Shown one piece after another: positions 2,297 through 5,936 of a stretch of 64,000 nt of DNA. How positions within the stretch are numbered: the first letter of the stretch is position 1; each line of letters starts with the position of its first letter. Location: NCBI RefSeq assembly GCF_019649015.1, contig NZ_BLPI01000001.1, positions 887,501-951,500 of the forward strand. Reading direction: 5' to 3'. This DNA comes from Agarivorans litoreus (GTDB taxonomy: Bacteria; Pseudomonadota; Gammaproteobacteria; Enterobacterales; Celerinatantimonadaceae). The position numbers were made by a program, and so were the translations under genes. Below the pieces are notes generated by a model. That model worked only from the letters and a program-made list of their open reading frames with translations, was not told the origin of the DNA and did no database searches.

Positions 2297-3491
2297 CAGG
2301 GCGGGAGCATACTTTGATGGATTTATAACCCAAAGAAGACTCTTGCCCTATAATCATCGTTCCAACCCGCTTTCTTCAGCTTCACTTTTTGGCTCGGCGC
2401 ACCACATTCGCATTGCTTGAGCATATTCATCACAAAACGTCTAGATAACGCAATGTTTTCAACGGCACCATCTAAAGTAATACGAGAGCTATCTTCTTTA
2501 AAAACAACATCTAAAACATAATGTTGGCTGTTCTCAATCCGCCAATGCTGGCGAATATAATGGCCCAGTAGTTTGTGGTTTGGCGACAAAGAACTAATGT
2601 AGTAAGAGGTATCTACAGTACCTTTACCATTGATCACACGATGGCGTTCCACTGCTATGATGCTTCTTATCGTCGGCCATTTCTTCGCCAATTCGTCGGG
2701 CAATTTGGCCTTTATCTGAAATACGTATCGCTCTTCGCTGCGACCATGTTTTTTCTCTTTGACCTCGGTGACTATTTTCTCTTTACCTGCATCAAAAATC
2801 GCTTGGAACTGCTCCACAACAGCCGCTCTAAGCTTGGGCTGATTATTCTTAACCTGGACAACAACATGCGCTTGTTTTTCTTTGATTTTTTCTAGTGTTT
2901 CACGCTGGCAATGCAGTGCATCAACCGTGACAACACTACCCTTTACATTAATGACATCAAGCATTTGACGAACAATGCTTATTTCACCATTTTTAGTCTC
3001 AGTCGGCTTTTGGCTTAGAACGAGGCCACGCTCGGTGTCGTAAGCCGTGACCAACTGCAATGCTGTTTTCCTGTCGTTACGATAGGAGCCCCGTAGAACC
3101 TTTCCGTCAAAAGCGATAATGGGTTTGTTCTGAGTAGTTCGTTGTTCGTTAATCCAAAGAGCCAAAGCTTCAAGCAAAGATTCCGCAACAACGGAACGCA
3201 AGATGCGAGCTATCGTGTGTCTTCGAGGGATGCCATGCTCGAATGGTCGATATTTTCTTAACCAGTCGAGTTTTTCTTCTCCAAAAAATTCAATGTCTTG
3301 CCAACCTTCGCATCCCGATGCGATAGCGCTGATCACAAGGAACATAACATCAATAAGGTTGTGTTTCTGGTTGATGTCCGATCGAGTATCTTCTACAACA
3401 GATAAGTGTTCAATAAGGTTCAAAATGACTGTGCTGCTGAGGGTTTGGCACAATTAGATCATATTAGTTAACAAAGTGCGATCCCGCCCTG
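2297..3491 (-). mobile_element. ISAs1-family insertion sequence, complete
   Basis: A 1195-bp element bounded by imperfect 20-bp inverted repeats at 2297-2316 (CAGGGCGGGAGCATACTTTG) and, inverted, at 3472-3491 (CAGGGCGGGATCGCACTTTG), with three mismatches. Exact 10-bp target duplications flank it, and a single full-length transposase gene fills it. Intact repeats, duplications and reading frame suggest recent insertion and possible activity. It lies directly upstream of a small membrane-protein gene. Confidence 0.93.
2323..3453 (-). CDS. ISAs1 family transposase
   Basis: A 376-residue DDE transposase. The N-terminal region (about 10-100, with DIEFFGEEKLDWLRKY and GIPRRHTIARILR) is the DDE_Tnp_1-associated domain typical of ISAs1 transposases. 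The catalytic core follows: the first Asp in IAFDGKVLRGS, the second in VVTVDALHCQRET, and the Glu in the HWRIENSQHYVLDVVFKED block. It cuts and joins the element ends. Full length for the family (about 370-380), no frameshift. It fills nearly the whole element, from 32 bases inside one end to 26 bases inside the other. Very sure. Confidence 0.95.
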   Translation of the reverse strand: MCQTLSSTVILNLIEHLSVVEDTRSDINQKHNLIDVMFLVISAIASGCEGWQDIEFFGEEKLDWLRKYRPFEHGIPRRHTIARILRSVVAESLLEALALWINEQRTTQNKPIIAFDGKVLRGSYRNDRKTALQLVTAYDTERGLVLSQKPTETKNGEISIVRQMLDVINVKGSVVTVDALHCQRETLEKIKEKQAHVVVQVKNNQPKLRAAVVEQFQAIFDAGKEKIVTEVKEKKHGRSEERYVFQIKAKLPDELAKKWPTIRSIIAVERHRVINGKGTVDTSYYISSLSPNHKLLGHYIRQHWRIENSQHYVLDVVFKEDSSRITLDGAVENIALSRRFVMNMLKQCECGAPSQKVKLKKAGWNDDYRARVFFGL

Positions 3492-3716: not shown

Positions 3717-5216
3717 TCACTTTTGAGTTTGATACAAGGCGACTCGTTGCTCCAGCGAAAGCATAGTATTAGCGACTTTTTCTGCGGTATCGGCAAGCAA
3801 CTGGCTTTGCTCAATTAACACGGTGTTTTTGTCTCTGATCTCATTAATACTTTGCTCTATCTGGTTACAAGCATCGGTTTGTTCGGTGGTGCTGTTAGCT
3901 ATTTGGGTATTCACATCGCGCATATCACTTACGCTCTGATTAATTTGAGAAAGCGCGCTACCACCAGACTCAATTTTGGCTTTAGACTCATCGGAATACA
4001 CCAACCCTTTTTGCATTGAATCTACCACTTGCGAAGCGTTGGTTTGCAAGGTATCGATGATTTGATTAACCTCTCCTGTCGATTGCTGGGTTCTGGCTGC
4101 CAATGCCCGCACTTCATCAGCCACTACTGCAAAACCGCGCCCTAACTCGCCTGCGCGGGCGGCTTCAATGGCGGCATTTAAGGCCAGCAAATTGGTTTGT
4201 TCCGATATCGCTTTAATCACTTCGATAACCGCGTTAATTCCTTGTACATTGTCGTTAAGTTGGCTGGTATAAACTTCCGAATCGCTAAGCAAGCTATTTA
4301 GTGTTTGGGTGGCAGCTACCGATTCATCTACATCTTTTGAGCCAGACTGAATTTGCGCCTCTACGGACTCCGCGGCATTTGCCGCATTGCTGGCATTATC
4401 AGCCACATGACGCGCCGAATGGGATAACTGCACAGAGGCGCTAGCGACAGAATCACTTTGCTGCATTTGCTGCATAACAATTTCTTTGGTTTCGCTACTT
4501 TGCTGGTTTAGCCCACTCACTAAACCATTTATATCGACAATAGATTGTTTTAAGTCGCTAAACAGTTCATTGAATTCGGTAATTAAAGTATTGAATGCAA
4601 TCACCGTGGGGTGCTCAGTATTGCTGGTAATAGTGGCAGTAAGGTCTTTGTTTTCAGCCAACTTATCGACGGCCAAAATAACCGAGTTCGACACCTTCGC
4701 ATCCTTAGCCATGTTGATCGCGTAAAAAATCAGTACCCCACTTTCTACCACCACAAAAGCTGCGTGCACAAAAGCCGTTCCCCAGGAGCAACCGGTGCTA
4801 TATAAAATCACCGGTATACCGCCTAAACTCGCATCATTTAGCTGCAAAGCAGTAAACACCAAGTGATGCACGGCAATTAAGCCCGCCGCAGCCACCACTG
4901 GTAACCAATCTTTGTAGATCAATACAAACGCCAAGGCCGCAAAGATATGAAAATGCATTTCTAATCGGCCCAATTGGGCCTGAATCATTACCATGGAATA
5001 CACCATCAGCAACATGGCATTTATGCAAGAAGACAGACGAGTTCCGCGCATATACGTATAGTTAAGCAAGGCTACAATAGAGATGAGCACCGACATGGTT
5101 AGCGCAAAAGAATGGCTTGCGTAACCAATAGGTACCAGCAGCCCTACTACTGGTAAATGAGCCAATAAAATGTACAGTACCTGCTTATCGGCTAGCTGTG
5201 CGGAGTTAGAAATCAT
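3717..5216 (-). CDS. methyl-accepting chemotaxis protein with histidine-rich membrane sensor
   Basis: A 499-residue inner-membrane chemoreceptor. Residues 10-170 form about six membrane segments with no large periplasmic loop. Within them lie H20, E86/H88/H90 (EMHFH), H117-H118, H151 and E158, a spacing that could hold a metal or haem in the membrane. Residues 200-495 form the cytoplasmic signalling coiled coil. Its hairpin tip carries the conserved [19 protein letters not shown] and [13 protein letters not shown] segments that bind CheA/CheW. There is no HAMP region I can recognise. Its start codon overlaps the stop of the upstream SCO-like gene by four bases (ATGA), so the two are translated together. 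The signal is unknown; a redox, oxygen or copper cue is inferred from the partner and the histidines. Confidence 0.9.
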
Positions 5217-5797
5217 AATAAATCACCTTGTTGCAATAACTTAAAATCGGTAACTACCTGGCTAATATCAAGGTTTTGCTGGGTATATACCAAGCTCACC
5301 TCACCTTGAGGGTTAAGCAGGTACAAGTATGCTGAGTGGTCAACAACTTGCTGGTCGAAACTGGTTGAGACATAACCTGGAAAGCGTTGTGATACCTCGA
5401 TAGATTGCTGAAAGTCAGCAACCTGACGAAACTCCACCTTGTTTAACATCGCAGAGCTAAAGGCCTGTTGAGGGGCAGACATCACTAAATCAATATACAA
5501 AAACTGGGCGGCCTGTAATGCCGCATCATCGGCTAAGGCCGCTAAATTGAGTAACTGGCGAGGGCAAGCCTGACTACAGCCCTGAAAGCCCAAAAACAAA
5601 TAAGTATATTTGCCATGGTAATCACTAAGCTCACCCTGCTGATTTAGCAAAATATTGTAAGCCTGAGCTTGGCTAAGTTGCCCATAAAAATCGCCAGCTT
5701 GGGAAACTGGCTTTACAAATGGCAACGCAAAAGCAAACACGGCTGGGCAAACAAACAGCAAAAGTGCCCTAAATTTAACGAGATACTGGTTCATCAT
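5213..5797 (-). CDS. SCO1/SenC-like thioredoxin-fold protein
   Basis: A 194-residue protein with an N-terminal hydrophobic export or anchor segment (about residues 10-28) and a thioredoxin-like domain. C74 and C78 stand in GCSQACP, matching the CxxxC of SCO proteins. H154 in [16 protein letters not shown] matches the distal copper-ligand histidine. SCO proteins carry copper to, or reduce thiols of, cytochrome oxidase CuA sites in the periplasm. Here no oxidase gene is near. Instead the gene overlaps a chemoreceptor by four bases, which suggests a sensing role. Spacing of Cys and His is right for the family, though overall similarity is modest. Start taken at ATG 5797; the next codon is also ATG. 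Confidence 0.72.
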
Positions 5798-5902: not shown

Positions 5903-5936
5903 GAGAAAAGAAAAAGCGAATGCCCAGCACTCGCTT
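5903..5936 (-). terminator. terminator of the NmrA-like gene
   Basis: On the minus strand AAGCGA (5936-5931) and TCGCTT (5919-5914), with an inner TG/CA pair, form a hairpin followed by a T-rich tract (TTTCTTTTCT). It begins 24 bases after the stop at 5960. Confidence 0.65.

Follow-up and report, generated by a model that had tools for sequence, protein, structure and literature searches.

The window, which is the whole 64,000-nucleotide stretch of Agarivorans litoreus DNA that was analysed, carries on its minus strand a gene pair encoding an SCO-like protein and a membrane-bound chemoreceptor. SCO proteins are a copper- and thiol-handling family that is best known from the assembly of respiratory oxidases. 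The two genes are located as follows.

3717..5216, minus strand: chemoreceptor gene, an open reading frame of 499 amino acids, with an ATGA overlap with the SCO-like gene
5213..5797, minus strand: SCO-like gene, an open reading frame of 194 amino acids for a membrane-anchored periplasmic protein, above the cut-off of the Pfam SCO1-SenC model

An earlier reading made from the sequence alone (hereafter the sequence-only reading) had described a four-base overlap of these genes, a set of cysteine, histidine and glutamate residues in their products (C74, C78 and H154 of the SCO protein and a His/Glu set of the receptor), and a lack of oxidase genes at the locus. The overlap consists of the shared ATGA, all the residues are located where they had been placed, and the pair has no oxidase subunit I gene near it, both COX1 matches in the genome being more than 800 kb distant.

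The SCO protein scored 34.9 bits with the Pfam SCO1-SenC model (cut-off 22.8) and the receptor 131.9 bits with the MCPsignal model (cut-off 34.6). No Pfam match, COX1 included, was obtained for the first 185 residues of the receptor, and a search of solved structures with the sensor-domain profile also gave no match. The receptor was divided into the following parts.

3834..4376, minus strand: signalling domain of methyl-accepting chemotaxis proteins (MCPs), residues 281-461, Pfam PF00015
4662..5216, minus strand: six-helix membrane sensor domain, residues 1-185, from the conservation of the domain in relatives and the charges of its loops
4782..4844, minus strand: long outer loop, residues 125-145, which distinguishes SCO-linked receptors in the comparison of relatives

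The sensor domain was found in 66 of the 295 genomes of the order. Each of the 21 best matches in the order (at least 101 bits) was immediately preceded by an SCO gene on its own strand; nine lower-scoring matches (82.7 bits or less), the next to be examined, had none there. Further searches covered 369 genomes of the class (24 with a match), 398 genomes of the phylum (67 with a match) and three more orders (48, 24 and 48 genomes, of which 8, 5 and 4 had a match), these genome sets being overlapping, as well as plasmid records (19 with a match). The pair was thus found in a wide range of bacteria, which bears out its conservation.

Forty-two long-loop receptors were collected, including 40 with a loop of 21 residues, one with a loop of 20 (L086; L, G and f numbers are our own labels for loci, genomes and families) and one that is interrupted before the loop (L028). 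An SCO gene adjoins 38 of these 42, upstream in 36 cases (L086 and L028 included) and downstream in two (L163 and L166), and the SCO-adjacent receptors span 12 family labels and Marinobacter. The four long-loop receptors with no adjacent SCO gene are L088, L164, L165 and L168; in the genomes of L164 and L165 only canonical SCOs were present among those examined, and the genome of L168 gave no SCO match. Beside receptors of other kinds, no SCO gene was seen in any of 120 rows (113 distinct places, seven of them seen twice), in which the downstream DNA examined was often about 0.5 kb, and among the order-wide SCO genes listed none stands beside a short-loop receptor. A third arrangement, besides the upstream and downstream ones, was found in a distant subfamily, where an SCO gene is oriented divergently from each of two receptors (L219 and L222), at a distance of 42 nucleotides in the case of L222. 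This SCO-receptor association is independent of the long-loop one.

Several individual loci deserve description in their own right. On plasmid pD15-8W of Marinobacter nanhaiticus (L261:3378-5467), a gene annotated as 'SCO family protein' is followed by one annotated as 'methyl-accepting chemotaxis protein'. In L086 the SCO and sensor genes are both broken, as if lost together, and two tandem SCO-like matches lie upstream of the receptor at G383:C6:134234-135432 (L238, L083). Plasmid p3 of Pseudomonas aeruginosa (L262:3096-4795) carries a short-loop receptor, annotated as a hypothetical protein of 315 amino acids without the full signalling part, and a DUF6436 gene, not an SCO gene, precedes it. 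The two distant receptors with divergent SCO genes (L219:1-3038 and L222:1176-4229) belong to MCPs; their sensor domains are relatives of an EGHM..HH..H type, and at the far end there is a weak match to the CZB zinc-binding domain.

The overlap had been taken as a sign that the two genes are coupled. Closeness of the genes is usual in the relatives, but of the 36 upstream pairs only 11 overlap by four nucleotides (L021-L026, L083, L084, L085, L106 and, with a longer receptor frame, L261); 17 of the others have a gap of 4-18 nucleotides, and the remaining eight differ through the choice of start or broken genes.

When 14 stretches of 8.5-14.5 kb were compared with the window's own neighbourhood, only the SCO group (13 loci) and the sensor/signalling group (17 genes) recurred broadly, and other gene groups linked two or three loci; in two stretches (L143 and L144) simple gene picking preferred a spurious frame on the opposite strand to the receptor. 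The main groups of the SCO tree and of the sensor tree were concordant, also for three genomes (G003, G006 and G007) from the family of the window whose version of the pair is the one found in another family, f6. L083 had different neighbours in the two trees, its placement in the sensor tree being without strong support. Chance adjacency was rejected on the basis of the linkage, the differing neighbourhoods and the concordant trees, and we conclude that the SCO-sensor pair is a conserved unit, more general than the sequence-only reading held.

The outputs of the linked sensors include MCPs (L083, L084, L087, L091, L167, L245, L246, L253, L163 and L166), a multi-PAS hybrid kinase (L085), hybrid kinases (L106 and L255), a HisKA domain (L254) and a PAS domain (L256). 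Since kinases occur among the outputs besides chemoreceptors, the SCO gene goes with the sensor domain and not with chemotaxis. A two-part taxis system had been proposed for the pair; the coupling of its two parts is strongly supported by this conservation and by receptor histidines that, H20 apart, do not vary freely, two points on which it could have been refuted. However, 'taxis' is too narrow, because the same pair also feeds histidine kinases.

The profile of the linked SCO proteins matched solved SCO1, SCO2 and ScoI chains, and two elements of the family's copper site were located in the window.

5564..5578, minus strand: C74-x3-C78 motif of the SCO protein, invariant in the alignments of linked SCOs
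5336..5338, minus strand: H154, at the position of the third SCO copper ligand, invariant in the same alignments

C74, C78 and H154 were kept in 18 of 18 and 13 of 13 linked SCOs in two alignments. The proline after the first cysteine of the CPxxCP motif is replaced in linked SCOs (CSQAC here versus CPD in 14 of 14 canonical rows), and this proline marks the canonical branch, not the whole SCO1/SenC family. In the SCO tree (27 linked and 14 canonical sequences) there were two changes of label, with one change in 51% of bootstrap trees, compatible with a single origin of the linked SCOs or with several; the linked SCOs branch away from the 14 canonical ones, and the divergent SCOs of L219 and L222 are separate again. 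A second SCO protein of the genome has the motif CPDVCPT, and its gene adjoins one for a PCuAC copper chaperone. Copper delivery to CuA sites is a function of SCO proteins, and thiol reductase activity is found in some of them (PMC6696091; this and the papers cited below are represented by excerpts).

The receptor had been described as having no periplasmic sensor loop. It indeed has no folded periplasmic domain, but a loop of about 20 residues precedes the last helix and contains a cysteine.

4788..4790, minus strand: C143, outer-face cysteine; C143 or C124 is present in all counted upstream-SCO receptors

Among 31 upstream-SCO receptors, 26 have C143 and five have C124, never both, and neither occurs in any of 118 other rows. 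The rule was drawn from 25 receptors and later held for six new ones and for that of Marinobacter, so that it applies to 32 of 32 readable sequences. L022 and L023 (near-copies), L028 (internal stop) and L086 (both genes broken) were omitted from this count, although C143 is visible in L022, L023 and L086; the partial sequences L220 and L223 were omitted from both the cysteine and the residue counts, and L107, a piece at a contig end, from the tables. C124 is also present in L088, whose genome has a linked-type SCO gene on another contig. No cysteine is found at position 124 or 143 in L164, L165 and L168, the long-loop receptors for which no linked-type SCO was found. The genome of L168 is the only one in which no SCO was matched, and its receptor carries tyrosine at position 117, glutamine at 158 and histidine at 143. 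In this comparison of sequences the SCO-linked receptors are set apart by the long loop and by one cysteine predicted to lie on the outer face. A universal thiol relay via one fixed cysteine was rejected in its simple form, as the position is either 143 or 124 and the cysteine is absent in L163 and L166.

These results bear on another account of the locus, namely that the SCO protein serves an oxidase or general copper homeostasis and that its location beside a receptor is incidental. Such service is the normal role of SCO proteins. However, adjacency in 38 of 42 cases, in three arrangements and among otherwise differing neighbours, together with the matching trees, the correlated cysteine, the separate canonical SCO of the genome and the distant oxidase genes, makes this account highly improbable.

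Three further elements of the sensor domain were defined by residue counts.

4947..4955, minus strand: H88-x-H90, at the outer end of helix 4
4863..4868, minus strand: H117-H118, in helix 5
4743..4766, minus strand: H151 to E158, in helix 6

The numbers of lysine and arginine residues, summed over 37 receptors, were 1, 21 and 3 in the outer loops and 45, 64, 44 and 64 in the inner loops. These charges are mostly positive-inside and fit six helices with the N terminus inside, and the named residues would therefore lie in the outer half of the membrane, on the side of the SCO domain. In 37 long-loop receptors, E86 was present in 37, H88 in 37, H90 in 36, H117 in 36, H118 in 37, H151 in 37 and E158 in 33. 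The corresponding counts in 118 other rows were 89 for E86 (with D in 27), 118 for H88, 111 for H117, 118 for H118, 117 for H151 and 92 for E158. The histidine set that the sequence-only reading had suspected of binding copper or haem stands in part: H88, H90, H117, H118 and H151 do not vary freely, but H20 is rejected as a conserved ligand, because position 20 of the 37 long-loop receptors is H in 20, Q in 16 and C in one. H90 was also rejected as an SCO-specific residue, since L247-L251 have H90 without an SCO and L106 has an SCO without H90. The subgroup L247-L251 combines HFH with an aspartate (D) at position 117, has a loop of 13 residues and lacks an SCO gene.

The histidine core, as far as aligned residues can tell, belongs to the whole receptor family and was not added by the SCO link. 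Because it is common to a large SCO-less family, the core alone cannot be what needs the SCO protein. One explanation of this distribution is that the family-wide core binds heme and that the SCO protein merely reduces or protects the added cysteine. It would suit a core that is common to SCO-linked receptors, SCO-less receptors and haloarchaeal six-helix MCPs, and it can draw on the proposed heme binding of HtrVIII, a six-transmembrane oxygen transducer (PMC13401364), and on the thiol reductase activity possible for SCO proteins (PMC6696091). However, the sensor profile has no similarity to that of one oxidase-type subunit I (hhalign with one archaeal subunit-I-like protein gave a probability of 0.1%), the heme binding of the family and its likeness to HtrVIII are proposals compared by description only, and the complete CxxxC and histidine of the SCO protein argue for copper binding that is probably retained. 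We consider this explanation improbable. Homology of the sensor with COX1 itself was rejected on the hhalign result and the lack of a Pfam COX1 match.

The SCO gene follows the long-loop sensor and not chemotaxis, the SCO ligand residues are intact, and an outer-face cysteine accompanies an upstream SCO gene. Since the sole broadly conserved partner of the SCO gene is a sensor with a histidine-rich outer pocket and an SCO-accompanying cysteine, we infer that the SCO protein metallates or reduces a site in that sensor. The reading that we favour, to which we assign a probability of roughly 50%, is that a private SCO protein supplies copper to a His/Cys site of the six-helix sensor, or maintains this site in reduced form, and that the sensor responds to oxygen, redox state or copper. 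The two genes would then form one sensory module, in which the membrane-anchored periplasmic SCO protein serves a six-helix sensor ending in a chemotaxis hairpin. E86, H88, H90, H117, H118, H151 and E158, in the outer half of helices 4-6, would lie beside C143, on the membrane side that also holds the CxxxC and histidine of the SCO protein, and these residues may form one joint site with copper as the metal. The SCO protein would most probably act on the receptor as SCO proteins do for cytochrome oxidase, by inserting copper into the His/Cys site, by reducing it, or both, and the site would then report oxygen, redox state or copper, whichever is the stimulus, to CheA. As a mechanism this appears plausible.

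Alternatively, the SCO protein itself may be the sensor, in a relay like that of PrrC, in which the copper or redox state of the periplasm would shift it between a copper-bound, a reduced and a disulfide form and it would touch the outer loop, so that the receptor would signal with no metal of its own. The long loop and the lone cysteine, the parts that accompany the SCO gene, both sit at the outer face, a place at which the SCO protein could dock. The relay gives no account of the buried histidine core that is retained in every receptor, linked or not, or of the cysteine-free receptors with a downstream SCO gene (L163 and L166), and we regard it as rather unlikely.

The favoured reading, in which the SCO protein metallates or reduces the sensor, has also to be set against several observations. 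The histidine core is equally conserved in SCO-less relatives, L163 and L166 lack a cysteine at both 124 and 143 in spite of their downstream SCO genes, and L106 has an SCO gene but F at position 90. L164 and L165 retain the long loop and the histidine set without a linked-type SCO among the SCOs examined. The linked SCOs are without the CPxxCP proline and may therefore not share the copper or redox chemistry of the canonical proteins. Finally, because many of the genomes are related, the linkage and cysteine counts are not made up of independent cases, a Fisher test on the cysteine counts that ignores this relatedness is given no weight, and the structure prediction (window sequence and one relative) had a mean predicted local distance difference test score of 38.1, too poor for site geometry.

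More broadly, the results might point to a widespread and previously undescribed class of sensors, in which an oxidase-like copper (His/Cys) site is built by a private SCO in MCPs, histidine kinases and hybrid kinases, from a six-helix domain common to haloarchaeal receptors; this is a tentative suggestion, and we hold it somewhat doubtful. We know of no sensory receptor from any other system that has a dedicated metallation factor, and no description of an SCO-chemoreceptor pair was present among the best matches to titles and the starts of abstracts in open-licence literature, which is weak evidence of absence. The sensor is a probable SCO client outside the respiratory oxidases, and an uncharacterised six-helix receptor family gains a concrete, testable chemistry. 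Receptors with the long loop, cysteine and SCO, next to those with a short loop and neither cysteine nor SCO, provide a natural comparison for how a signalling protein gains a metal or redox centre, and the pair also has a bearing on the role of SCO proteins in signalling of the PrrB/PrrC type.

The surroundings of the two genes include two further minor features.

5223..5229, minus strand: AAGGTGA, a ribosome-site-like stretch for the receptor gene within the end of the SCO gene, from reading the sequence
5914..5936, minus strand: terminator-like hairpin between the NmrA-like and SCO genes, from a pattern scan, weak

AAGGTGA precedes the ATG of the receptor gene by six bases. The NmrA-like gene lies on the same strand, 162 bases upstream of the SCO gene, and the hairpin between them is weak evidence for a terminator, as the scan gave five such sites versus 2.8 expected (standard deviation 1.7). 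A promoter scan gave three sites versus 4.5 expected. A gene for an ISAs1-family transposase (2323-3453) is located immediately downstream of the receptor gene.

The nearest precedents for the pair are PrrB/PrrC and the archaeal oxygen receptor HtrVIII. The motif GGxxNPF, which we take to be that of the RegB/PrrB membrane domain, did not occur within residues 1-230 of any of 38 sequences, and an NCBIfam search with five sensors gave no RegB model among the best 25 matches of each; identification as a RegB-type sensor was rejected for want of the motif. As here, the SCO protein of the PrrB/PrrC (RegB/SenC) system of Rhodobacter is produced alongside a sensory system bound to the membrane (PMC9147068, in excerpt), whereas the sensor of the window has a different membrane domain without GGxxNPF and its output is a chemoreceptor.

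HtrVIII of Halobacterium is, as here, an MCP with a six-helix membrane sensor, a likeness judged by description only; excerpts describe it as a six-transmembrane transducer for oxygen as an attractant that is said to resemble oxidase heme sites (PMC13401364; PMC3579733). Two haloarchaeal six-helix MCPs of unnamed function gave scores of 62.5 and 54.5 bits with the sensor profile; unlike that of the window's receptor, their loop is short, and neither has an annotated SCO neighbour. On a plasmid of Halobaculum limi (L263:412-5982), a haloarchaeal MCP with this six-helix domain is flanked on one side by nirK, the gene for copper nitrite reductase, and on the other by a gene whose annotation is cbb3-type oxidase subunit I, a setting that hints at sensing of an N-oxide or oxygen.

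The domain, the CxxxC motif and the histidine of the window's SCO protein are common to the canonical SCO1/SenC copper chaperones, from which it differs in the replaced CP of CPxxCP, in its separate branch (14 canonical sequences used) and in having a sensor as its gene partner. McpR of Caulobacter is a chemoreceptor with reported copper coordination by Cys and His; in contrast to the receptor of the window it is cytoplasmic, and 'sco' has no occurrence in the main text as excerpted (PMC10579534). The chemoreceptor described in an excerpt of PMC12016497 has a Cache-type sensor. The CetA/CetB energy-taxis receptor is also encoded by two genes, with a separate sensing or helper protein, but the partner of CetA is a cytoplasmic PAS protein with flavin adenine dinucleotide (PMC12442639, in excerpt), whereas the partner here is a periplasmic SCO protein.
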